Assembly (NCBI GenBank): GCA_013388895.1
Contig: JACAEK010000024.1
Location: 62,001-126,000, forward strand
Length of the DNA stretch: 64,000 nucleotides
Direction of reading: 5' to 3'
Source: Candidatus Bathyarchaeota archaeon
Lineage (GTDB): Archaea; Thermoproteota; Bathyarchaeia; Bathyarchaeales; Bathycorpusculaceae
The notes below the pieces were generated by a model. The model ran no database searches. It saw only the letters and a list, made by a program, of their open reading frames with translations, and was not told the origin of the DNA. This document shows positions 45,921 through 58,791 of the stretch, one piece after another. How positions within the stretch are numbered: the stretch's first letter is position 1; every line of letters begins with the position of its first letter. Position numbers and translations under genes: made by a program.

Positions 45921-46415
45921 TTAAAGAAGAAGATTGAGCAGAATTTTTGCTAGGTCTTTTGCTTTAGCCTCAATTTCAGGCGTTAATGCTTCTCCAAAAT
46001 CGGTTTCTTTCGGCTGTATCAACAACAAAGCTATTTTTGCCTTTGTTGTTTTGGTGAGATACTCACAGAAAATACGCAATGGAAGCATGTGTGTGGAAAA
46101 AGCTGGAAATGCAGTCAACTTTTCGGATTTGACGAGTCTTGTTTCGCCCGCTTTCAGGTCTAAAAGTGCCGCATCGATTAGAAGAACATGTGTTGGGTTA
46201 AACTCTATTATCTGTTGGATGAAGCTTTCTGGGACAGTTTCACACTCAATCAGCAAGATTTTATCAGAAACTTTGCCTCGCAACTCTTGAACAATTTTGA
46301 CACCAACAAAATCGTCCATACGAATAGGATTCCCAATGCCAGCAACAACCACTTTTTCAGCGTTTGAAAGCCACTTCTCCAATTCTTTTTGAACGTTACA
46401 TTTTTCGCTAGACAT
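45921..46415 (-). CDS. hydrogenase maturation protease (HyaD/FrhD type)
   Basis: The 164-residue protein has the maturation-protease motifs VVAGIGNPIRMDDFVGVKIV near residue 24 and LIDAALLDL near residue 80. Asp and Glu residues there bind the nickel of the precursor. It would cut the C-terminal extension of the NiFe large subunit, here MvhA, after nickel insertion. It is the last gene of the Hdr/Mvh train, about 48 bases behind mvhA. This fits its role. Confidence 0.9.
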   Translation of the reverse strand: MSSEKCNVQKELEKWLSNAEKVVVAGIGNPIRMDDFVGVKIVQELRGKVSDKILLIECETVPESFIQQIIEFNPTHVLLIDAALLDLKAGETRLVKSEKLTAFPAFSTHMLPLRIFCEYLTKTTKAKIALLLIQPKETDFGEALTPEIEAKAKDLAKILLNLLL

Positions 46416-46462
46416 TGAAAAATCTCCAAAGACGGAATAAGAAAAGAAAAGTGGATAAAGGT

Positions 46463-47917
46463 TTATCTTTGCACTGTTCGGAGCAGTTTCTTTTCGCTGT
46501 TGTAGATTTCTATGGTTAGCGGCATTTGCCCAATTGCATAATGCGTGGCACAGCCGAAGCAGGGGTCATATGCTCTAAACGCCATCTCCACCATGTTCAA
46601 GACGCCTTGGTCTACTTTGTCGCCGTGAATCAAGCCTTTAGCTGCGTTGCGCACTGACATGTTGATTGATGGAGCATTATTCACTGTAGCAACAATCAAA
46701 TTGACATCTTTTATCAAGGCATCCTCGTCTAGAACGTAGTGGTGGATTAGGGTTCCTCTTGCGGCTTCTACAATTCCTATGCCTTCGCCTGGTTCGCCTG
46801 GTTTATTGCGAATATCCTTACTTGTTATTTCGGGATCTTTAACCAATTCAAGAGCTCTTTCCGCAGCATATAGCAGCTCGATGAGCCTGGCCCAGTGAAA
46901 AGCCAAGGTGGAATGCACAGGTTTTCCGCCCAATGTTTTATACATAGTCTCATATTCTTCTTGCGCAAGCCGTGTGGCCATGCCATCTGAAGCATTGAGC
47001 CTTCCCAATGGTCCAACACGATATGCGCCACTTGCTGAACCGTCCACGAAGCCTTTCCAGCCAACTTTTTTCAGATATGGAAACTTTACATATGTCCATT
47101 CTTCCACATGTTCAGCAATGTGATTCAGATAATCCTTTGGTTCAAATTTCAGAAACTCCTTGCCATCTGGGTCAACAACTCGGACTTTACCATCGTAGAA
47201 GTTGACTTTATTATTCTTGTCAACCAATCCCATGTAGTAGGTTTTTAGTGTGTAAGCGTCACTTTTAATCAAATTAACGTATCTACTATTGCTTAAGACT
47301 ATGTCGTGAAACAGCTTTAATGAAAATTTTGCAAACTCTACAGAAGAGGCGGCCATCTTTTCAATTTCTTGTCTTTCCTCTTCACTTAATGCCTTAGAGA
47401 TTCCGCCTGGCAAGCCGCAAACTGGATGTGTAGCTTTTCCACCAATAATTTCAGTAATTCTCTGACCAAAAGCCCTATGCTTAATAACCTCCTTACCCAC
47501 ATCCAAGCCAGCCTTTTCAATAACGCCCAAAACGTTTCGCTTTTCTGGAGGCGCATCTGGTCCAACTATGAAGTCTGGTCCACCTAAATAGTAGAAATGC
47601 AGTGTGTGGTCGTAAATGAAATAGCCACAATACATAAGCTCCCGAAGTTTTTTAGCCGCAAGCGGCGGTTCAACATTAAAGGCAGCGTCTAAAGTTTTCG
47701 TGCCAGCCATGTGATGGGCAACTGGACAGACGCCGCAGATTCTGCTCGTTAAAAGCGGCATATCCTCAGCTTTTCTTCCAACACAGAAACGTTCAAAACC
47801 CCTAAGCTCTGGAATCTGCAAGTAAGCGTTTTCTACTTCACCACTTTCGTTCAGAAAAATAGAGATTTTGCCATGGCCTTCAAGCCGTGTTATCGGGTCT
47901 ATAATCAGCTTCTTCAT
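46463..47917 (-). CDS. mvhA: F420-non-reducing NiFe hydrogenase large subunit MvhA
   Basis: The 484-residue protein binds the NiFe active site through RICGVCPVAHH near residue 58 and DPCFGCATH near the C-terminus. The first carries the C-x2-C pair, the second the C-x2-C-x2-H used by the maturation protease. The residues after that His (YAIGQMPLTIEIYN and on) are the extension to be removed. It oxidises H2 and passes electrons to MvhG. The start overlaps the mvhG stop by four bases. No membrane anchor is present, so it is cytoplasmic. Confidence 0.94.
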   Translation of the reverse strand: MKKLIIDPITRLEGHGKISIFLNESGEVENAYLQIPELRGFERFCVGRKAEDMPLLTSRICGVCPVAHHMAGTKTLDAAFNVEPPLAAKKLRELMYCGYFIYDHTLHFYYLGGPDFIVGPDAPPEKRNVLGVIEKAGLDVGKEVIKHRAFGQRITEIIGGKATHPVCGLPGGISKALSEEERQEIEKMAASSVEFAKFSLKLFHDIVLSNSRYVNLIKSDAYTLKTYYMGLVDKNNKVNFYDGKVRVVDPDGKEFLKFEPKDYLNHIAEHVEEWTYVKFPYLKKVGWKGFVDGSASGAYRVGPLGRLNASDGMATRLAQEEYETMYKTLGGKPVHSTLAFHWARLIELLYAAERALELVKDPEITSKDIRNKPGEPGEGIGIVEAARGTLIHHYVLDEDALIKDVNLIVATVNNAPSINMSVRNAAKGLIHGDKVDQGVLNMVEMAFRAYDPCFGCATHYAIGQMPLTIEIYNSEKKLLRTVQR

Positions 47918-48897
47918 TCTTTCACCACCTTTCTTCTCAAAATCGACGCAGGCAAAGCGTACATGTAAAACGTCCCAAGCGGGTCCTTAATCTGACTGAT
48001 GAGGCTTTCAACTTCTTCCTGCGTGTATTTTTCTTTCTCCTCTTCCAAGCCCAAAATTGAAGCTAAAGCGCTTATCATTGCAGCACCTTGCTCAGGAGAG
48101 TTGGGACAAGGTCCACCGCAACCTGTGCATGGCATATCTGCATTTAAGCATCTGGCGCCACATCCACCTCTTGTGGCTGGACCCATACAAACTATTCCTT
48201 GCTCAAGCAAGCATCTTTCTGGTTCAGGTGCCTTCTCATAAGTGCGATATATTTTGGTGATTTTCTTGTTTTCTTTCTTTCTTGGGCATTCATCACACAC
48301 AGATTTTAACGGTGCAAGTACAGAACCTTTAGGCGGCAGCTCACCTTTTGCTATGACATCCACTGCGAATAATGTGCGTTCAACAGCAGGCGGACAGCCG
48401 GGCACATAATAGTCCACAGCGACTACTTGGTCTAAGGTTCGAACTGTATCGTAGAATTCTGGAATGTCCAATTCGCCTTCTTTCACATGCACCGTAGGCT
48501 TTGGCGTTATATTGTCTGGATTCGCCGTTGAAAAAGTTGTAGCGTAGACTTTCTCGAAAACCTCTTTCCTATTGGCTACGTTTGCAAGTCCAGGAACCCC
48601 GCCCAAGTGTGCACATGCTCCGTAGGCAACTAGCAACTTTGATTTTTGTCTCAAAAGCTTAGCCAAATGCTCCTGCTCGCTGTTTCTTATTCCACCGTTA
48701 AAGAAGCACACGTCAATGTATTTGTCTGACATGGCTTCAACATCTTTGTATTTGATGTCCATAGCTACTGGCCAGAAAACTATGTCGGCGATTTGCACAA
48801 CATCAAGTATCTTCTCGTTTATGTCTAGAACTGCTATTTCGCAGCCACCGCAGCTGGCTGCCCAGTAGAATGCAATTTTCAATTTACTTTTACTCAA
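47914..48897 (-). CDS. mvhG: F420-non-reducing hydrogenase small subunit MvhG
   Basis: The 327-residue protein has the NiFe small-subunit signature SCGGCEIAVLD at residues 15-25 and DYYVPGCPPA near residue 163. A cysteine-rich C-terminal region (CLLEQGIVCMGPATRGGCGARC, CTGCGGPCP) holds the medial and distal clusters. It transfers electrons from MvhA to MvhD. It is coupled to mvhA and follows hdrB by 15 bases. Confidence 0.94.
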   Translation of the reverse strand: MSKSKLKIAFYWAASCGGCEIAVLDINEKILDVVQIADIVFWPVAMDIKYKDVEAMSDKYIDVCFFNGGIRNSEQEHLAKLLRQKSKLLVAYGACAHLGGVPGLANVANRKEVFEKVYATTFSTANPDNITPKPTVHVKEGELDIPEFYDTVRTLDQVVAVDYYVPGCPPAVERTLFAVDVIAKGELPPKGSVLAPLKSVCDECPRKKENKKITKIYRTYEKAPEPERCLLEQGIVCMGPATRGGCGARCLNADMPCTGCGGPCPNSPEQGAAMISALASILGLEEEKEKYTQEEVESLISQIKDPLGTFYMYALPASILRRKVVKE

Positions 48898-48912: not shown

Positions 48913-49806
48913 TTACATGGCTTCTTTTAGGATTTTGGAAGCGTCAACTCGTAATTCGTTAAATGCAAGTTCTTCAGGCAAGATGCCCATTGCTAAGCCA
49001 AGCAACTGTGTATAATGCAGTATCGGAATCCCATAGGTTTCGTTAAACATTTTTTCTATGCGCAGTTCGTTTGTGTCGTACATTATGTGGCAGAAAGGAC
49101 AAATCGTTACCAGAGCCTGTGCGCCAACCATTTTAACATGATTTAATTTGTCTCTTGCAAGTTGCAATGCAATTTTGTCGCTTATGCCAACGCTTGGCGC
49201 GCCGCAACATTCCGTTTCATCCATATAATCTAAGCATGTGGCGCCTGTTGCTTCAATGAGAGTTTTAAGAGTTTTGGGATCTTCTGGATCGTCAAATCCA
49301 ATGTATTCTTTTGGCCTTAGGATGTGACAGCCGTTGTGCTCAGCCACTTTGAACGCTGTAAGCGGTTTTACGACGGCATTCTTTATTTTCTCCAAGCCTA
49401 TGTCTTCGATTAACGCTTGCATTATGTGCTTCGCTTCTATTGTGCCCTTGAACTCTAAGCCTGCCTCTTTCAAATGACTGTTTATGTCTTCCCGCAAAGC
49501 CTTATCTTCTTTCAGCATTTTGTTAACTTTTTTCAGCGTACCAGCGCAGCCAGGGCAGAGCGTTAAAATGTTTAAGCCTTTCTGTTCAGCCAATGCTAGA
49601 TTTCGTGCCGCCAGTATAAGCATCATTTCGTGGCTGACTGGGTCCAATGGAAGACCGCAGCAATTGAATTCTGGCATTTCAACAAGCTCAACGCCCAATT
49701 TCTGCATGACTTTCCGAGCTGAGATTTCGAATGCTGACACACGGTAGGGGATTGCGCACCCAAGAAACATGAGATATTTGTTTTTCTCTGCCATCTTTCT
49801 ATTCAC
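48913..49806 (-). CDS. hdrB: heterodisulfide reductase subunit HdrB
   Basis: The 297-residue protein has two CCG domains. The first shows FNCCGLPLDP and LTLCPGCAGTL; the second shows DETECCGAPSVG and ITICPFCHIMYD. These cysteines hold the non-cubane 4Fe-4S clusters that split CoM-S-S-CoB. Its start overlaps hdrC by eight bases. In the complex it would reduce a disulfide; the true substrate in this lineage is not proved. Confidence 0.94.
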   Translation of the reverse strand: MNRKMAEKNKYLMFLGCAIPYRVSAFEISARKVMQKLGVELVEMPEFNCCGLPLDPVSHEMMLILAARNLALAEQKGLNILTLCPGCAGTLKKVNKMLKEDKALREDINSHLKEAGLEFKGTIEAKHIMQALIEDIGLEKIKNAVVKPLTAFKVAEHNGCHILRPKEYIGFDDPEDPKTLKTLIEATGATCLDYMDETECCGAPSVGISDKIALQLARDKLNHVKMVGAQALVTICPFCHIMYDTNELRIEKMFNETYGIPILHYTQLLGLAMGILPEELAFNELRVDASKILKEAM

Positions 49807-50323
49807 CTTTCTTTTCTATATGCTTCGCGAAACCCACATTGCAGAGTGTTTTGCGTATGCTTTCAGGGTTACCGCGTGGTAATGGCGGCAATCCGACGGA
49901 TTCTCGTTTCTTTATTCGCAAATCTGGAATTTTGTAAGCATAACCCGACGCGAGTATGCTCGCGGCTTGCTCCTTAAAAACCTGTGGAATACAGCCTCTT
50001 TCAGCTGCTAGGTTTCTTAGTACGCGTATGACGCTTGCGACTTCAACGTCTTGTGGACAACGGTCAGTGCACGTGAAGCAAGAAGCACACAGCCACAAGG
50101 TGTCGCTGTTTAGCACTCTATCTTTCAATCCTAACTGTGTCATGCGGATTATTTGTCTTGGCCTGTAGGTTTCGCTGAATCTTGCAACAGGGCAGTCTGA
50201 AGTGCATGTTCCGCACTGGAAACAGCGCATCAGTTTTTCTCCGCCGTGCATCTTGGCGATTTCGTACTTGAATTTGGGGTCAATTTCTGAAGCTTTTATT
50301 CGTTCTTTTTCTTTTTCAGCCAT
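49799..50323 (-). CDS. hdrC: heterodisulfide reductase subunit HdrC
   Basis: The 174-residue protein carries two 4Fe-4S motifs, MRCFQCGTCTSDCPVA and LCASCFTCTDRCPQDV. Helical linkers such as RQIIRMTQLGLKD separate them. It carries electrons between HdrA and HdrB. Its ATG shares a base with the mvhD stop, and it overlaps hdrB downstream. The length matches methanogen HdrC. Confidence 0.94.
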   Translation of the reverse strand: MAEKEKERIKASEIDPKFKYEIAKMHGGEKLMRCFQCGTCTSDCPVARFSETYRPRQIIRMTQLGLKDRVLNSDTLWLCASCFTCTDRCPQDVEVASVIRVLRNLAAERGCIPQVFKEQAASILASGYAYKIPDLRIKKRESVGLPPLPRGNPESIRKTLCNVGFAKHIEKKGE

Positions 50324-50760
50324 TAGGCTTTAGCCTCCATATTTTTTAATGGGCTTGGTCCAAGCTTTCTTATTTGTTCAACCATGTCCCGTACGATGGC
50401 GGCGAATCTGTCGCCTTCGCTTGCGGAAACCCATTCCAGTCGCACACGTTCTGGCTCAATTCCAAATTCTTTAAGGACTTTTCTTAGGAGGGCAACTCTT
50501 CTTGAAGCCTTAAAGTTTCCAGTTAAGTAGTGGCAGTCTGAGGGCAAGTGGCATCCAGCAACGAGTACTCCGTCAGCGCCATCTTTAAACGCTTCCAGGA
50601 TAAAGGCTGGGTCTATTCTGCCGCTGCACATGACGCGGATGATTCGAATGTTTGGTGGATATTGAATTCTGCTTACGCCTGCCAAGTCTGCGCCTGCATA
50701 GCTACACCAGTTACATAGGAAACCGATTATTTTCGGTTTGAATCCGTTGTTTTTGCTCAT
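50323..50760 (-). CDS. mvhD: hydrogenase electron-transfer subunit MvhD
   Basis: From ATG 50760, which overlaps the hdrA stop (ATGA), the 145-residue protein has the 2Fe-2S MvhD motifs. They are [24 protein letters not shown], and [12 protein letters not shown]. It links the hydrogenase (MvhAG) to HdrA. A longer upstream frame is only overlap with hdrA. This copy keeps all cluster cysteines, in contrast to the fusion copy at 53783. Confidence 0.94.
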
Positions 50761-53700
50761 GCTGTTGCCTCCTCCATTAAGGCGGCTTTGACTTGGGCTA
50801 GTATTTCTTCGGTTGTGAAGTGTCCCATCGTGATGGCTTTGGTTGGACACGCTGTGCCGCATGCCCCGCAGCCTTTGCATAGGGCTTCAATTACGTGTGC
50901 TACAGGTTTTCCTTCTTTTTCCTTTATTTCTATGGCATTGTAGGGACATAGATATTCACAAATTCTACAACCGCTACATAAATCTTCGTCAACGTTTGCC
51001 ACAATTCCTTCCATCTCAAGCGTCGATTTCGAGAGTATAGTAGTTGCTCTTGCCGCTGCTCCACAAGCTTGCGAAATGCTTTCATCAATGTATTTAGGCG
51101 AGTGCGCCATGCCACATAGAAATACGCCTTCTGTTGCGAAGTCTAGTGGTCTGAGCTTCATGTGAGCTTCAAGAAAGAAGCCATCTTTTGTGAGTGGCAC
51201 TTTAAGCATTTCAGCCACACGCTTATTGTCTGGATTCGGAATTGTAGCAGCACTTAATACTACGAAGTCTGGTTCTAGCTCAATTTCTTCTTTTAGTATT
51301 GGCTCCCAAAACAATAATTTCAGTTTTCCAGGCTCGCTTGTGACCTGAGGTTTTCTATCGTCGTCGTAGTTTATGAATAATACGCCTTTTGTTGCTGCTT
51401 CACGGTAATAGTCTTCTTTGAAGCCGTATGCTCGCAAATCTTTGTATAAAACGTAGACTTCTGTTTCAGGCGATATTTCTTTAATTTTTAGGGCGTTTTT
51501 TATGGCTTGTCCGCAGCATATTCTTGCACAGTTGGGTCTTTCCTCGTTTCTTGCTCCAACACATTGAATCATAGCAACATTTTTTGCCTTGAATCTACCG
51601 TTTGCAATTTTTTCTTCCAACTCATGCTGCGTTATTACTTTTGGGTTTTTGCCATAAAGATATTCGGTTGGTTTATATTCTGTTGCGCCAGTTGCTACGA
51701 TTACGATGCCATGTTCAACCTCTTTCTCCTCACCATCATGCAATGCTATCTTCGATTTGAAATTACCAACAAACCCAGTTACGTCAGCTACCTCTGCGCC
51801 CAGATAAACATGTATCCTCTTATTTCCTTCAACCGCTCGGACTAAATTGTTTAGTTTTTCTTGTGGGTCTTCATTTTCGAGCAGATAGTGGATTTTGCGT
51901 AGGTTTCCGCCTAGTTCTTTTTCTCTTTCTACAAGGTGCACCTCAAAGCCTTGTTTTGCAAGTTCCAGAGCTGCAATCATGCCTGAAACGCCGCCGCCGA
52001 TGATTAAGCCGACTTGTGTAACGTTTATGACAGGCTTTTGCAAGGGTTTCAGAAGTGTTGCTTTTGCAACTATTGAGCGAACTAGGTCTTTGGCTTTCTC
52101 TGTGGCTTCTTTTGGCTCATGCATGTGCACCCAACTGCACTGGTCGCGTATGTTTGTCATTTCGAACAAGTAGGGGTTTAAGCCAGCCTCTTGAACAGTT
52201 TCCTTGAATAGTGGCTCGTGAGTGCGTGGAGTGCAAGAGGCTACGACCACTCTGTTGAGTTTGTGTTGTTCGATTTTTTCTCTGATTAGTTTCTGCGTAT
52301 CTTGCGAGCAAGTGTACAGGTTAGCTTCTGCATAGGCTACATTCGGCAAGCTTTTGGCATATTCTACGACTTCTGGAACGTTAACTACTCCGCCAATGTT
52401 GATTCCGCAGTGACAAACAAAAACGCCGATGCGTGGTTCTTCTTTGCTCACGTCTCTTTCTGGCGGATACTCTTTGACTGTTACAAGTTTTCCTCTTTCT
52501 GGTGCAATTATGCTCATTGCTTTTGCGGCTGCACCACTTGCTTGGGCTACGCTTTCAGGGATGTCTTTGGGAGCGCTAAAGGCGCCGCAGACGAAAATGC
52601 CTTGCTTTGACGTTTCTAATGGTGAGAAATGTTTGGTTTCGCAGAAGTTGTATTTGTTCAGTTCTATGTCCAGAATTTTGGCTAGTTTATCTATGTTTTT
52701 TGGTGGAGTCATGCCTATTGATAGGATTACCATGTCATATTCTTCTGTTTTGGGCGTTTCGTTCTCCACGTAGTGCACATGGAGATTGCCTGTTAACGTG
52801 TCTTCAGTTACGCCTGCAACTCGCGACCTTACAAAGCGTATGCCCCATTCTTCTTTTGCTCGATTGCAGTAGTCGTCAAATTCTTTTCCGTAAGCTCTCA
52901 GATCCATGTAGAAAATTGTAGCATCCAGTTTTGAGGGCGTGTGTTCCTTGGCAATTACTGCTTCCTTCATGCCGTACATGCAGCAGGCAGCAGAGCAATA
53001 GGGGTTGCCAAGTTGAAAGTCTCTTGAACCGACGCATTGGATGAAAGCAATTTTCTTTGGGATTTCGCCGTCTGAAGGCCTTAAAACCAATCCGCCGTAT
53101 GGTCCAGAAGCGCTTAAAATGCGTTCAAATTCTATGCTTGTTACAACATTGAGGTAGCGTCCGTAACCGTATTCGCTTTTCTGTTTTGCATCAAAGGCTT
53201 CAAACCCTGGCGCAAGGATTATTGAGCCTACGTTTAAGGTGACTTCGCTGTCTTTCTGTTCGTATTCTATGGCTTTTGCCTTGCAGATTTCGTAGCATGT
53301 GCCACACCCAATGCATTTTTCACGGTCAATCTTATATTTCAATGGGACTGCTTGTGGGTAATCAACGTAGATTGCGCTTCGTTGGGCTAGGCCTTCATTA
53401 TACATGTCCACAGCTTCAATTGGACATTTTTGTGCACATAGACCGCAGCCATTGCATTTTTCTTCGATTATGTAACGACTGCGTTTTCGAAGTTTCACTT
53501 CGAAGTTTCCAGCCTCACCACTTAAGCCCGTTATTTCCGCGTTAGTCAATATGGAAATGTTCGGATGTCTGCCTGTTGCCACAAGCTTAGGCGAAAGAAT
53601 GCACATTGAACAGTCGTTTGTTGGAAATGTCTTGTCAAGCTGCGCCATCACTCCGCCTATGCTGGGACCTTGATCGATTAAGTATACTTTGAAGCCTGAA

Positions 53701-53780
53701 TCTGCGAGGTCTAATGAGGCCTGTACGCCGGCAACTCCTCCTCCTACTACGAGAACTGCTCCAACTTTTTTCTTTTCCAT
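50757..53780 (-). CDS. hdrA: double-module HdrA flavoprotein
   Basis: The 1007-residue protein is far longer than methanogen HdrA (about 650). Residues 1-445 form a first HdrA-like flavoprotein: FAD motif [17 protein letters not shown], the [10 protein letters not shown] cysteines, two ferredoxin clusters, and [20 protein letters not shown]. Residues from about 455 are a complete Hdr[23 protein letters not shown], a second FAD motif [17 protein letters not shown] near residue 596, and C-terminal 4Fe-4S motifs [12 protein letters not shown] and [12 protein letters not shown]. HdrA bifurcates electrons between ferredoxin and the disulfide. A second flavin could add another branch. Confidence 0.94.
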
Positions 53781-53782
53781 AC

Positions 53783-54556
53783 TTATTTGACCTCCAATGC
53801 TTTGTAGAAGGGAGTTGTTCCTTCAACGTGGTCTAGGATTATCATGTTTCTTCTACGCATGTTCACAATCTGTCTAAGGACAGCGGCAGGCTTCATTCCA
53901 ACTGTCTCTGCCAATTCTTTAACTGAAAACGGCTTAGTCTTGGTTAGAAGATAAAACATGTGCCGAACGAACTCTTCCCTAATAATATCGTCGAATGTTG
54001 CATCAAGTTCCTCTTTTGGAATATGCTCACCATAAACGTTCACGCCTTCCGTCAACTCTTTTTCTCTACCGAGCAAAACTCTCAATCTAAAGTCAGAAGC
54101 AACGTTTTTAGTCGCCAAGATATTCAGCATTAACTTGGACTGTGGCTGTTCATTTCTCAATGGTGACGGACCAAAATTCTTTACTTGTTCATAGAAATCT
54201 TTCACATGTTGACCGAAGCTTTGCTTTTCGGAAGGCGAATACCAAAGGAGCTTTACACGTTCTGGCTCTAAACCTGCGAGGGGAATAAGCTTCTTCAATA
54301 TTTCAACTGTATATTCTGTTTGAAGATTTCCTTCAACATAATGGCAATCAGGCGGATGACAACCAATGAGCAAAACACCATCTGCACCTTTGGCAAAAGT
54401 TTCCAACACAGCAACTGGGTCGATTCTGCCGATACACATCACTCGCACAAAACGTATTCTAGGATAGCCCCATATTCTTCCAGTGCCAGCACTATTCAGC
54501 GTGGTGGGTTGACTCCAGTTGCAAACAAAACCAATTATTTTGGGTTTGAACATCAT
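53783..54556 (-). CDS. MvhD-like domain fused to a C-terminal winged helix
   Basis: The 257-residue protein joins an MvhD domain (1-140) to about 110 residues. The latter end in a winged helix: MFYLLTKTKPFSVKELAETVG, then MKPAAVLRQIVNMRRRNMI. The MvhD part keeps RVMCIGRIDP and GCHPPDCHY but reads CNWSQP where normal MvhD has CNWC, so one 2Fe-2S ligand is lost. The fusion could be an electron-transfer subunit with a DNA- or protein-binding tail, or a redox-sensing regulator. It sits between the GltD-like gene and hdrA (two bases from each). Confidence 0.88.
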   Translation of the reverse strand: MMFKPKIIGFVCNWSQPTTLNSAGTGRIWGYPRIRFVRVMCIGRIDPVAVLETFAKGADGVLLIGCHPPDCHYVEGNLQTEYTVEILKKLIPLAGLEPERVKLLWYSPSEKQSFGQHVKDFYEQVKNFGPSPLRNEQPQSKLMLNILATKNVASDFRLRVLLGREKELTEGVNVYGEHIPKEELDATFDDIIREEFVRHMFYLLTKTKPFSVKELAETVGMKPAAVLRQIVNMRRRNMIILDHVEGTTPFYKALEVK

Positions 54557-56286
54557 GCAAACTCCTTCTTCAATGCATACGAAATATCAGTTCTGATTTG
54601 ATCATCCGTAAATCGTTCCATGATAATCGCTTTTTCAGGACACCTCGCACTGCAAATGCCACAGCCTTTACATGATAAGTCGTCCACCTGCGCTACTCCT
54701 CTTTCATTCTTCTTTATGGCACCGAAAGGACAAACCACGGCGCAGACATTACATCCAGTACACAATGTCTCGTCAACAATCGCTTTGTCTGCGTCACATA
54801 ACCCTTCGTTTAGAAGACATTCACTGCATGGACCACATCCAAGACATCTTCGAGCCTCAACTGTGGCAAGTTCTTTGGCTTGACTTAAGAGCCTGTCAGC
54901 TTCCTCAAAACTTACACTTTGACGCCCTACGTCTACTTGAGGAGCCTTGTATCTTTCAGGTTTTTTGGTTATTTTTTCCCAGTCTTTAACCCAACTGACA
55001 CTTTCAGTTTCTTCCTCTCTTCCTGCATGCAGATCCTGCCCATTCAAAAACCGATCAATCGATGTTGCAACCCTCTTGCCTGCTCCAATAGCCTCAATCA
55101 CGCTCGCCGGACCAGTAGCTATGTCACCTCCTGCAAAAACGCCTAAAATCTTGGTTTCTAACGTTAGTGAATCAGCCAAGATTGTTTCCTTGCGTTCATC
55201 CAACAGAACAGTTGGTAGACATGAAGTTTCCACGACCTGGCTTATTGCGGGAATTACAGTGTCCACCGTATATGTGTGCTCACTTCCTTGGATAGGCACT
55301 GGTCGCTTTCTGCCGCTTGCGTCGGGTTTTCCCAGTTCCATTCTTAAGCATTCAATCTCTTTAACTCTGGTTCCCTCACCAATGATTCTTTTCGGTGCTA
55401 CTAGAAAATGAAACTTCACTCCTTCTTCTTCGGCTGCTTCAATTTCATGTGGAAGCGCGGGCATTTCGTTGCGTGAACGACGGTAAAGAATAGTCACCTC
55501 TTTTGCGCCAAGCCTCAGCGATGTGCGCGCTGCATCAATTGCGCTGTTGCCTCCTCCAATAACCGCTACTTTTTCGCCTATGTCAACAGTTTTTCCCTGA
55601 GCTACAAGCCTCAAGAATTCAACAGCGTGAAAGACACCATGCAAATCCTCCCCAGGTATCCCAAGTTTGCTGCTCAATTGTGCTCCTGTTGCGATGAATA
55701 CGGCTCTATATCCCTTATCGCGTAAGGTGTCAAGCGTTATGTCTTTGCCAAATTCTACGCCAGTTTCGATTTCAACGCCTAAGTCTTGAATGTAGGCTAT
55801 TTCGTTGGCAACAACGTATTTTCGCAGACGATAGTCTGGAATACCATAACGCATCATGCCTCCAGGTTCAGGCATCCGCTCAAATACTGTAACTGGATAA
55901 CCCAACTTTGCAAGTTCGTATGCAGCACTTAATCCAGCTGGACCAGCGCCGACTATGGCAATCTTTTCGCCATGTTTTTTGAGAATGGAATCAGGCTTTA
56001 TTCGGCCTTGTTCCCGTTCAATGTCGGCAGCAAGCCGCTTTAAATAACGAATACCTACTGGCTGATCGCTGTTCTTTCTTGAGCAAGCATCTTGGCAAGG
56101 ACTGACGCAGATTCTGCCACAAATCGCCGGGAAAGGCATACTCTTCCTAATAAGCTCAACTGCTTCTTTGAATTTGCCTTGCTGAAGCAAGGAAATGTAT
56201 CCTTGAACATTCACGTCTGCAGGACATGCGGCTCTACAAGGTGGCAACTTACGCTTTTTCTCTAAAGCGCAACTAATAACAGTCAT
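54553..56286 (-). CDS. GltD/NfnB-like NAD(P)-linked flavoprotein with ferredoxin clusters
   Basis: The 577-residue protein has an N-terminal cysteine region (PPCRAACPADVNVQGYI, CGRICVSPCQDACSRK) as in glutamate synthase small subunit. Two Rossmann folds follow, for FAD (IAIVGAGPAGLSAAYELAKLG near residue 110) and NAD(P) (VAVIGGGNSAIDAARTSLRLG near residue 243). The end adds CLGCGPCSECLLNEGLC and two 4Fe-4S motifs, CTGCNVCAVVCP and CKGCGICSARCP. No large glutamate synthase subunit is near. In this operon it is likely an NAD(P)H branch of the Hdr complex (inference). Confidence 0.9.
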   Translation of the reverse strand: MTVISCALEKKRKLPPCRAACPADVNVQGYISLLQQGKFKEAVELIRKSMPFPAICGRICVSPCQDACSRKNSDQPVGIRYLKRLAADIEREQGRIKPDSILKKHGEKIAIVGAGPAGLSAAYELAKLGYPVTVFERMPEPGGMMRYGIPDYRLRKYVVANEIAYIQDLGVEIETGVEFGKDITLDTLRDKGYRAVFIATGAQLSSKLGIPGEDLHGVFHAVEFLRLVAQGKTVDIGEKVAVIGGGNSAIDAARTSLRLGAKEVTILYRRSRNEMPALPHEIEAAEEEGVKFHFLVAPKRIIGEGTRVKEIECLRMELGKPDASGRKRPVPIQGSEHTYTVDTVIPAISQVVETSCLPTVLLDERKETILADSLTLETKILGVFAGGDIATGPASVIEAIGAGKRVATSIDRFLNGQDLHAGREEETESVSWVKDWEKITKKPERYKAPQVDVGRQSVSFEEADRLLSQAKELATVEARRCLGCGPCSECLLNEGLCDADKAIVDETLCTGCNVCAVVCPFGAIKKNERGVAQVDDLSCKGCGICSARCPEKAIIMERFTDDQIRTDISYALKKEFA

Positions 56287-56339
56287 TTCTTTGAAACATC
56301 TCCACTATTTCTTTCCGAGATAATAAAAAAGGGGGTTAA

Positions 56340-56942
56340 TCAAGTGCTGACGATTTGGGCTCCTTTCATCTTGCTTATCCATGTTTTGTACTGAGATGGA
56401 GTCATCAGATCTCTCAATTCTTCCTCCAATGCGATTACATTGTCGGGTTTGAATTCTGCTACCCATCCGGTCTCATATGGGTCCTTGTTGATTGTGGAAG
56501 GCTCTTCGTGGATGATATTGTTTATTTTGATGATTTTACCTGAGACGGGAGAGTTTAGATCGAACTTGAATAGCCATGTTTCAACGACGCCGAATGGCTT
56601 CTCTTTTTTCACTTCAGATCCAACAGGGTCTATTTGGACACTAATTATTCCTTCCATGTGCGTTTGGGCGTAGTCTGATAGGCCTATCCTTACATTTCCT
56701 TCTGAGGTCACAAGTGCCCACATGTGCTTTGAAGTGAAGAGAAGGCGATCTTGAATTAATGGATATTCTGTAGACTTCTGGGAGTTCTCCATTTTCTTGC
56801 GGTCTTTCTTGAGTTCATCGAGACGGATTTGGACAGCTTCGGATACAAACTCGGAGAGACTTTGGTAACGGTTTTTGTCAAATGTCCCTTCTACTGCGTC
56901 CACTAGTTCCTGTCTGACACGAACAGTTCTCCATTTCGTCAT
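56340..56942 (-). CDS. ribbon-helix-helix/GcvH-like fusion protein, copy 2
   Basis: From ATG 56942 the 200-residue protein has an N-terminal ribbon-helix-helix DNA-binding domain: WRTVRVRQELVDAVE, then LSEFVSEAVQIRLDEL. A glycine-cleavage H-protein-like domain follows, with MWALVTSEGNVRIGLSDYAQ, FGVVETWLFKFDLNSPVSG and DPYETGWVAEFKP. In a true H-protein the ESVK segment bears the lipoyl-lysine. Here ETWL occupies it, so lipoylation at the usual site is not possible. It follows its paralogue by about 25 bases and precedes the GltD-like gene. A regulator that senses a ligand or redox partner is suggested. Confidence 0.88.
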   Translation of the reverse strand: MTKWRTVRVRQELVDAVEGTFDKNRYQSLSEFVSEAVQIRLDELKKDRKKMENSQKSTEYPLIQDRLLFTSKHMWALVTSEGNVRIGLSDYAQTHMEGIISVQIDPVGSEVKKEKPFGVVETWLFKFDLNSPVSGKIIKINNIIHEEPSTINKDPYETGWVAEFKPDNVIALEEELRDLMTPSQYKTWISKMKGAQIVST

Positions 56943-56981
56943 ATGCTTCAGCACCATTCACTTGATTCTAATATTACCGAA

Positions 56982-57632
56982 CTATTGTTTTGCATCGTTC
57001 ATCATTTCACTTAGTTCGGCATCGCTTAGCGGCGACATTGGTCTGGTTTCAAGCTTGGCGAGAAATTTCTTGTACTCTTCGAACTTCAAGAGTTCCTCAA
57101 GTTCCTTAGAAGCTTCTGGGTTGTTGGGCTGAATTTCCACTATCCACTGATACGCATCTCCATTCAAAACGTATGGGTCATCAATGACTTCTTTGTTGAC
57201 TTTAACTATTGTTCCTTCAACTGGAGAGTAGATGTCATGGATGACGAATGGCCACCCAGCTGCTGTTTCAACTACTCCGAATGGCTTGTCCTTAGAAACT
57301 TGTTCTCCGATTTTTCCTGTTTCGACATAGACTATTCCTATGAGTTGGCTTGGGAAATATTCAGATACTCCAATTTTGACGTTTCCTTCTTTTGTTAGAC
57401 TTGCCCAAATATGTCTCGGCGTGTAGAATCGTTGTCCTTGTACTTGATCAACTCTGCCGTGCCTGTCTCGCTCTAGGTATTCTTTTACTCTTTCTTTGGT
57501 TAGTGTTTCCAAGCGATGGCGAATTGCTTCTGAAACGAATTCAGACAGATTTTGCAGCTCTTCTTTCTCAAGTTCCTTTTCTATTTCTTCCACGAGTTCT
57601 TGACGAACTTTCACATTTTTCCATTCTGGCAT
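56982..57632 (-). CDS. ribbon-helix-helix/GcvH-like fusion protein, copy 1
   Basis: From ATG 57632 (GGAGGGG upstream) the 216-residue protein matches the downstream paralogue in plan. A ribbon-helix-helix (WKNVKVRQELVEEIEKELEK, then LSEFVSEAIRHRLETL) is followed by an H-protein-like barrel. The barrel reads IWASLTKEGNVKIGVSEYF, GVVETAAGWPFVIHDIYSPVEG and DAYQWIVEIQP. A four-residue insertion replaces the lipoyl-lysine segment and no lysine is present. It is the first gene of the long Hdr/Mvh train and divergent from the PhoU-like gene. The repeats in that shared intergenic region are candidate binding sites. Confidence 0.88.
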   Translation of the reverse strand: MPEWKNVKVRQELVEEIEKELEKEELQNLSEFVSEAIRHRLETLTKERVKEYLERDRHGRVDQVQGQRFYTPRHIWASLTKEGNVKIGVSEYFPSQLIGIVYVETGKIGEQVSKDKPFGVVETAAGWPFVIHDIYSPVEGTIVKVNKEVIDDPYVLNGDAYQWIVEIQPNNPEASKELEELLKFEEYKKFLAKLETRPMSPLSDAELSEMMNDAKQ

Positions 57633-57679
57633 ACACATCCCCTCCATTTCTGCAAGCAGTATATATGGCGCACGCGTTA

Positions 57680-57729
57680 TAAATACATAATGCTTATATA
57701 AAACTTACTAGTAAATACTATAAATACTA
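57680..57729. promoter_or_regulatory. repeated TAAATAC operator candidates between the Hdr/Mvh train and phoU
   Basis: TAAATACTA occurs twice in tandem (57712-57720 and 57721-57729), and a related TAAATACAT lies at 57680-57688. A perfect palindrome TTACTAGTAA (57705-57714) overlaps the first copy. TATA-like boxes for both directions are mixed in: TTTATAAC on the minus strand near 57677-57684 and TTATATAAAAC on the plus strand near 57694. The arrangement fits a shared control region bound by a ribbon-helix-helix protein. Confidence 0.5.
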
Positions 57730-57744
57730 GGAGAGGCACATTTC

Positions 57745-58791
57745 ATGGAAAGTAGAAAAGTACAAAAAGTCGGTTACTCCACTCTGGCAATCTCACTACC
57801 AAGCAATTGGGTCAAAGAAAACGACCTAAAACGAGGAGACAACATATTTCTTATGTCAGAAAAAGACGGTTCACTGAAGCTGTTTACAAGCAAACTCGCC
57901 AAACGAGAGGAAGGAATCGAGGAGTACATTTGCAACTCTGACTTGTGCGATGAGCCAAAAATGTTAGAGCGCATAGTAGTTGGGAGCTACATTCTGGGGC
58001 GCGATGTTTTCTCAATAATATCGTCTGAAAGGGTCCGCCCCGAACACATCGAAGAAATAAGAGGAATAGTACCTAAGCTAATTGGACTAGGAATTGTAGA
58101 GGAAACTACCGACCGCATTGTGCTCCAATGCTCCATTGACCCTAGAAAATTCAATTTAGACATGCTATTACGAAGGCTTTCCATAATTTCTCTAACAATA
58201 GCAAAAGAAGCAATTCAAGCACTTGTGGATTCGGACGCTTCATTAGCGAAAGACGCCATAAAAAGAGAGGATGAAGCCGACGCCATGTGTCTACTTGCAA
58301 TGAGACTGCTAGTTTCTGCACAAAGAAAAAGAGAAGTAGCTGAAGAGATAGGGCTGAAGGATCCCTTACACATTCTCTACTTTGGACTAATGCTGAGATA
58401 TTTGGAGTTGGTTGCTGATTACGCTGAAGAGACAGCACGAAGAGTCATCGAGCTGTTGAAAAAATACAAAGAGAAGCTGCCTGAATGGGTAATAGAAAGA
58501 ATAAACAACCTAAATGATTTAGCCCATGACCTAGTCATGAAATCTGTGGATTGCTTCTTCATCGGTGACATAAAAATTGCAAATAGCCTTTTAGAAATGC
58601 TAACATTCGTTGAGCTCGAGAAAAACAAACTGATGCAGGAACTTCCTGAAATACCTCATCTGAGGCTGATACTTTGGAACATCTACAGAATGGCAGATAA
58701 TGGTGCAAGCATTGCGCTGGTAGCAATAAACAATTCTCTTGAGAGAAAGTCAAAGATTTGCACGAAAGGCTGGTCGACGGAGTTTAAATAG
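57745..58791 (+). CDS. PhoU-like regulator with AbrB N-terminus
   Basis: The 348-residue protein begins with an AbrB/MazE-type swapped-hairpin domain (RKVQKVGYSTLAISLPSNWVKENDLKRGD). Two PhoU-like three-helix repeats follow, with DADLMDRLM-like helices such as AKDAIKREDEADAMCLLAMRLL near residue 170. This is the usual archaeal phosphate-uptake regulator layout. AbrB may bind DNA and PhoU may sense phosphate metal clusters or proteins. No pst genes are near. AGGAGAGG supports ATG 57745. Confidence 0.9.
   Translation: MESRKVQKVGYSTLAISLPSNWVKENDLKRGDNIFLMSEKDGSLKLFTSKLAKREEGIEEYICNSDLCDEPKMLERIVVGSYILGRDVFSIISSERVRPEHIEEIRGIVPKLIGLGIVEETTDRIVLQCSIDPRKFNLDMLLRRLSIISLTIAKEAIQALVDSDASLAKDAIKREDEADAMCLLAMRLLVSAQRKREVAEEIGLKDPLHILYFGLMLRYLELVADYAEETARRVIELLKKYKEKLPEWVIERINNLNDLAHDLVMKSVDCFFIGDIKIANSLLEMLTFVELEKNKLMQELPEIPHLRLILWNIYRMADNGASIALVAINNSLERKSKICTKGWSTEFK

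Follow-up and report, generated by a model that had tools for sequence, protein, structure and literature searches.

The DNA analyzed here, a 64,000-nucleotide stretch of a Bathyarchaeota contig (the window), contains two adjacent paralogous genes at the head of a train of hydrogenase and heterodisulfide reductase (Hdr) genes, which raises the question of what a glycine-cleavage H-protein (GcvH) fold does behind a ribbon-helix-helix (RHH) DNA-binding domain. Both genes lie on the minus strand and are separated by 24 bases: the upstream paralogue, P0002 (56982..57647), is an open reading frame of 221 amino acids, and the downstream paralogue, P0001 (56340..56957), is one of 205 amino acids with its likely start at ATG 56942. 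For P0002, ATG 57632 is the likelier start, as had been proposed from the sequence, because homologues begin with M-x-x-W and a Shine-Dalgarno-like stretch (GGAGGGG) lies 5' of this codon.

The identity of the C-terminal half was established by profile and structure comparison. Pfam GCV_H matched residues 73–194 of P0001 (E 3.1e-28) and 74–197 of P0002 (E 7.1e-23), both above the cut-off, and the family profile aligned with solved H proteins at E 2e-30. In the AlphaFold model of P0001, the pLDDT of the H domain was mostly >90, and a Foldseek comparison with the bovine H-protein (3klr) gave a TM of 0.94 and an rmsd of 1.1 Å; the H domain of the P0002 model also folds, despite an insertion of 3–4 residues at the lipoyl hairpin. 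The family, referred to as RHH-GcvH, has its entire fold in common with GcvH (PF01597/TIGR00527; TM up to 0.94), along with the frame E-T/S ... D-x-x-x-P-x-x-G around the hairpin. It differs in having no lipoyl lysine, in its invariant Trp and hydrophobic hairpin, in its N-terminal RHH and in the absence of gcvP and gcvT neighbors, and it falls below the gcvH equivalog cut-off (TIGR00527; 87.4 and 78.4 bits for the window proteins vs. 115.85).

At the lysine site, ESTKSVSDLYAP of the M. tuberculosis H protein (3ift) stands opposite ETWMFVFDLYSP, and the H-protein hairpin ES(V/T)KA corresponds to ET-W-M-F in the RHH-GcvH family. Among 50 homologues readable at the lysine column, Met was present in 37, Trp in nine, Pro in three, Leu in one and Lys in none, and the Trp preceding this column was invariant. 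The claim that both window proteins lack the lipoyl lysine was thereby borne out: P0001 has Leu in this column, within ETWLFKFDL, and P0002 carries its insertion here (ETAAGWPFV), a feature limited to a small subclade (P0002 itself, L035a and L038a, and similarly L073). A shifted attachment site at K131 of P0001, two residues on, was considered and rejected, as the family position is occupied by M, T, I, V, K or R. The loss of the lysine is old and specific to this family, because none of the readable members retains it, whereas standalone H-like proteins read from other Thermoproteota keep it, as does a separate, ordinary GcvH encoded elsewhere in the window's genome, which also has an LplA-type ligase. 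A lysine-less H-like protein of another kind (ETWNF; L139:238-720 in genome G043) was seen inside Bathyarchaeia, with no RHH in its upstream frames.

A GcvH fold adjoining hdr genes recalls LbpA, which is likewise H-like and encoded beside hdr-type genes, and the original prediction had drawn this analogy. Under it, RHH-GcvH would carry lipoate for Hdr, as LbpA does in sHdr sulfur oxidation, and a lysine-bearing GcvH does lie beside HdrA2B2C2 in Culexarchaeia-type loci (L121, L123 and L125). However, the lipoyl lysine of LbpA is strictly conserved (PMC6067878), whereas it is missing from all 50 RHH-GcvH homologues, and LbpA works with sHdr, whereas the genes here are of the HdrA2/HdrBC and MvhAG type with no shdr genes among them. 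The two cysteines conserved in all but some archaeal LbpA are also absent from the window pair, P0001 having no cysteine and P0002 a single one, within the leader before its likely start. With the ordinary GcvH and the LplA-type ligase retained in the same genome, the analogy is not supported, and a lipoate-carrier role is barely credible.

The N-terminal ~45 residues of P0001 and P0002 have RHH character. The Pfam matches of the window proteins lie below the curated cut-offs (RHH_1 on P0002, 18.3 bits vs. 20.5; RHH_6 on P0001, 16.3 bits vs. 27), and RHH_1 was matched at E<0.01 by 11 of 22 family members, with a best E of 4e-6. An alignment of 51 sequences showed the pattern of the RHH class: a beta strand alternating between outward T/A/N/D, S/R/K and R/K and inward V/I/L, followed by two helices, with a near-invariant S-x-S-E-F turn. 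A basic residue (R/K) points outward on the predicted DNA-reading strand in all 51. The RHH segment had a low pLDDT, about 52–75 over much of its length, in AlphaFold monomers, a form of model that cannot display the dimer and therefore speaks neither for nor against an RHH. PDB sequence matches of the RHH were to ParD and NikR, none of them significant (NikR, E 0.35). Taken together, these results uphold the reading of the two genes as adjacent paralogues that each join an RHH to a GcvH-like domain.

We searched for the same architecture in other genomes. The RHH-GcvH fusion was found in 41 of 257 Bathyarchaeia genomes and was not found outside this class in a 398-genome search of the phylum, in which full-length profile matches occurred only within the class. 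A GTDB contig scan was built on RHH-derived patterns, so that a fusion whose RHH has diverged could have escaped it in other phyla. Of its 32 loci, 30 carried the title Bathyarchaeota and two that of uncultured archaeon; in the two weakest, the match was limited to the RHH. A chance fusion or frame artefact was ruled out, because of the GCV_H E-values and the conservation of the same fusion over many genera in these 41 genomes. Most relatives have a single RHH-GcvH copy, and the only congeneric genome covered by the search has none. A tree built from the H domains separated a clade of upstream copies (support 1.0) from one of downstream copies (0.97), the two being joined at 0.92; the tandem pair is, judging from these sequences, the product of one old duplication, retained in families f4 and f6 and in the window's genome.

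If the RHH alone did the work, the H domain could be a decaying relic without a role, and the loss of the attachment residue and the existence of single-domain RHH proteins (stand-alone homologues of 51–73 aa) would fit. Against such decay, the core H-fold residues and the W-x-F hairpin are conserved in both paralogue clades, and no truncated version of RHH-GcvH was seen among the loci except at contig ends or runs of N. We consider a relic very unlikely.

In the window, the pair heads the Hdr-Mvh train, as had been noted originally. Downstream on the minus strand lie a gene for a GltD/NfnB-type NAD(P)-oxidoreductase with FeS domains, the first structural gene of the train (54553..56286), an FlpD/MvhD-type gene whose product has a C-terminal winged-helix-like extension with a weak ArsR-type match (FlpD-wHTH; 53783..54556), an HdrA2-like subunit gene (50757..53780), a second FlpD/MvhD gene (listed as 50323..50880, although it probably starts further in), HdrC and HdrB genes (48913..50323), and genes for MvhG/VhuG-like and MvhA/VhuA-like proteins and a hydrogenase maturation protease (45921..48897). 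On the plus strand, a MazE/AbrB-PhoU gene (57745..58791) diverges from the pair. AbrB-PhoU adjoins the fusion in nearly all relatives, and most loci have the order AbrB-PhoU (divergent), fusion, GltD-type gene, FlpD-wHTH, HdrA, FlpD, HdrC, HdrB, MvhG, MvhA and protease. This place, at the operon head and divergent from AbrB-PhoU, is like that of a regulator. Many single-copy loci (L046, L051, L052, L058, L070 and similar) have a second HdrA-HdrC-HdrB set on the other side of AbrB-PhoU, with MvhA fragments at its edge.

A pyrimidine tract (C5T6; 56325..56335, minus strand) lies just past the P0001 stop codon, and similar tracts occupy this place in most relatives; single-copy loci have a TATA-like element before the GltD-type gene. 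These two features suggest that the regulator may form a transcript of its own.

The link to Hdr, also part of the original prediction, stood as an association but not as an exclusive one. A full-length FlpD-wHTH was present in 31 of 41 fusion genomes vs. 17 of 216 others (Fisher p 2e-19, kinship ignored), and the oxidoreductase, FlpD and HdrA-Mvh genes occurred in 31 of 41 fusion genomes, nearly always directly downstream. Where an FlpD-wHTH locus has no fusion, a second HdrA mostly takes the place of the GltD-type gene. In family f5, however, the fusion heads genes for a TauE/SafE-type permease followed by HoxE/F/U-like proteins and a NiFe hydrogenase, or TauE and then the Hdr train. Exclusivity was ruled out by L045, L048-L050, L054, L057 and L060, which have no Hdr train after the fusion, and neither an Hdr nor a Hox-type operon adjoins the fusion in genomes G186 and G055. 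The permease gene lies immediately 3' of the fusion in L063, L065, L045 and similar f5 loci, which hints at a link to sulfur or organic acids.

Our main argument comes from what else occupies the slot beside AbrB-PhoU. In L162:3758-4561 (G053, in which the fusion is absent), an RHH-DUF2096 protein sits in the slot of the fusion, divergent from AbrB-PhoU and with HdrA next; its RHH is 73% identical to that of the RHH-GcvH family (E 9e-18). At L035:14260-14620, just beyond AbrB-PhoU, a small protein combines an RHH with a Cys-rich tail. Two fusion-less slots divergent from AbrB-PhoU hold a lone AsnC/RAM ligand-binding domain (L160:1378-1710 in G076 and L161:3313-3591 in G047), followed in G076 by HoxE/F-like genes. 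A constant RHH head with changing C-terminal domains and variable cargo, read from the sequences, points to a slot for a local transcription regulator. P0001 and P0002 are probably such regulators, a reading based on the RHH joined to a lysine-less GcvH fold, the position at the operon head divergent from AbrB-PhoU, and the C-terminal exchange.

The same gene order could also be read in terms of assembly. RHH-GcvH would then be a structural or assembly factor in which the RHH serves dimerization only, while the H fold acts as scaffold or allosteric subunit by docking onto the NAD(P)-oxidoreductase/HdrA or a flavoprotein of HoxF type. The natural partners of the H protein include a pyridine nucleotide-disulfide flavoprotein, and NAD(P)-linked flavoproteins, GltD-type or HoxF-type, are regular companions of the fusion across different operons; moreover, the H-like protein GcvH-L binds an operon-encoded oxidoreductase (PMC4518038). 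A dimerization-only head is difficult to reconcile with the R/K kept on the DNA-reading strand in 51 of 51 sequences, with the position of its gene, which opens the operon and diverges from another gene whose product has a DNA-binding-type domain, with the swapping of unrelated C-terminal domains while the RHH is retained, and with the existence of close stand-alone RHH homologues. We regard an assembly role as unlikely.

The divergent promoter region common to the fusion and AbrB-PhoU (57633..57744) contains a palindrome, TAGTAAATACTA/TAGTATTTACTA (57709..57720), a candidate operator whose exact copy occurs once in the 1.58 Mb genome, and, overlapping it, two AAATACTA direct repeats with a period of 9 bp (57713..57729); related repeats are found at other loci. 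The palindrome falls inside 57660–57745, the stretch originally suggested as a possible target of the protein. When the intergenic region of the window was shuffled, an exact TAGTATTTACTA copy arose in 1 of 20,000 trials. Class-wide, TAGTATTTACTA has 49 exact copies, about 11 of them in the fusion/AbrB-PhoU intergenic region, which is a tiny share of the DNA searched. Four genomes of one genus without the fusion (G049, G050, G051 and G052) have one exact copy each. A wider regulon in the window's own genome was not indicated, as one exact and three one-mismatch sites were found there, fewer than for a reversed control pattern.

Either of the two divergent products might bind the palindrome. 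AbrB-PhoU may be the binder, with RHH-GcvH acting on other sites or as a co-regulator; we judge this a serious possibility, though somewhat short of even, and it is compatible with RHH-GcvH being a regulator. The palindrome lies just downstream of the AbrB-PhoU TATA-like element, with nearly constant spacing to the start codon of that gene (12–24 nt before it in strong-site loci), and G047, which has no fusion, retains a copy with one mismatch. However, a strong site (0–1 mismatch) near the AbrB-PhoU start was found in 13 of 31 fusion-bearing loci vs. 1 of 18 without (Fisher p 0.008, kinship ignored), and G183, in which no close AbrB-PhoU orthologue was found, has a compensated palindrome, CAGTATTTACTG, before its fusion. 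The match to the operator is weak (>=3 mismatches) in roughly half of the loci. A firm assignment of the palindrome to RHH-GcvH was dropped, given the site without a fusion in G047 and the one without AbrB-PhoU in G183.

With P0001 and P0002 as local regulators, the following mechanism may be pictured. Homo- or heterodimers, the latter considered because the two tandem paralogues are kept as a pair, would recognize short AT-rich repeats of the divergent promoter and regulate their own gene together with the downstream hydrogenase/Hdr genes. Lacking the lysine but carrying the invariant Trp and a hydrophobic hairpin (ETWMF), the H domain could serve as a non-covalent sensor or docking surface. 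Its simplest target would be the flavin oxidoreductase of the operon itself or a small redox ligand, and the product or redox state of the operon would in this way feed back on transcription. There is a precedent for docking by an H-like protein in GcvH-L, which docks the operon-encoded oxidoreductase OYE in a lipoylation-dependent manner (PMC4518038). Our fuller proposal is that a lipoate-carrier fold became the domain by which a one-component RHH switch senses or docks a partner non-covalently. Through this switch, the redox state or abundance of an electron-bifurcating hydrogenase/heterodisulfide reductase would control its own operon, and the switch would be one of a larger group of RHH regulators in Bathyarchaeia with exchanged C-terminal domains (H fold, DUF2096 and Cys-rich). 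As a whole, this proposal is tentative, with chances slightly below even.

The sensor of NikR is an ACT-type nickel-binding domain. RHH-GcvH resembles NikR and similar one-component RHH regulators in having an N-terminal RHH and a C-terminal sensor-type domain, but the latter is GCV_H rather than ACT, and the RHH matches that of NikR only at the E-value given above. With GcvH-L of SirTM operons it shares the reuse of the H fold outside glycine cleavage and a link to redox response, whereas GcvH-L is lipoylated and ADP-ribosylated and has no DNA-binding domain. No paper on the combination of RHH, H-like protein and Hdr was found in a literature search with limited coverage of subscription journals; related papers concerned LbpA-type proteins, Culexarchaeia and acetogen gcvH.

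The roles of the H-protein fold that could be documented here are all those of a lipoate carrier. In about 40 related species, where it usually precedes hydrogen-metabolism genes, RHH-GcvH most likely represents a metabolic carrier protein recycled into a dedicated gene switch. If so, a clade that lost the attachment site throughout, yet kept the fold and joined it to a DNA-binding head, would clearly exemplify the conversion of a metabolic carrier into a regulator, and it would offer a handle on how Bathyarchaeia might control Hdr-Mvh and Hox-type hydrogenases.

In a related archaeal class, the Ehe cluster of Culexarchaeia combines HdrA2B2C2 and a NiFe hydrogenase with an adjacent GcvH homologue (PMC9723716); unlike RHH-GcvH, the Culexarchaeia GcvH keeps the lysine (IESTKATSDL in L121/L125) and has no RHH. 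At L121, L123 and L125, the lysine-bearing H-like protein lies beside HdrA, HdrB, HdrC and SdhA, an arrangement that resembles the Ehe cluster.
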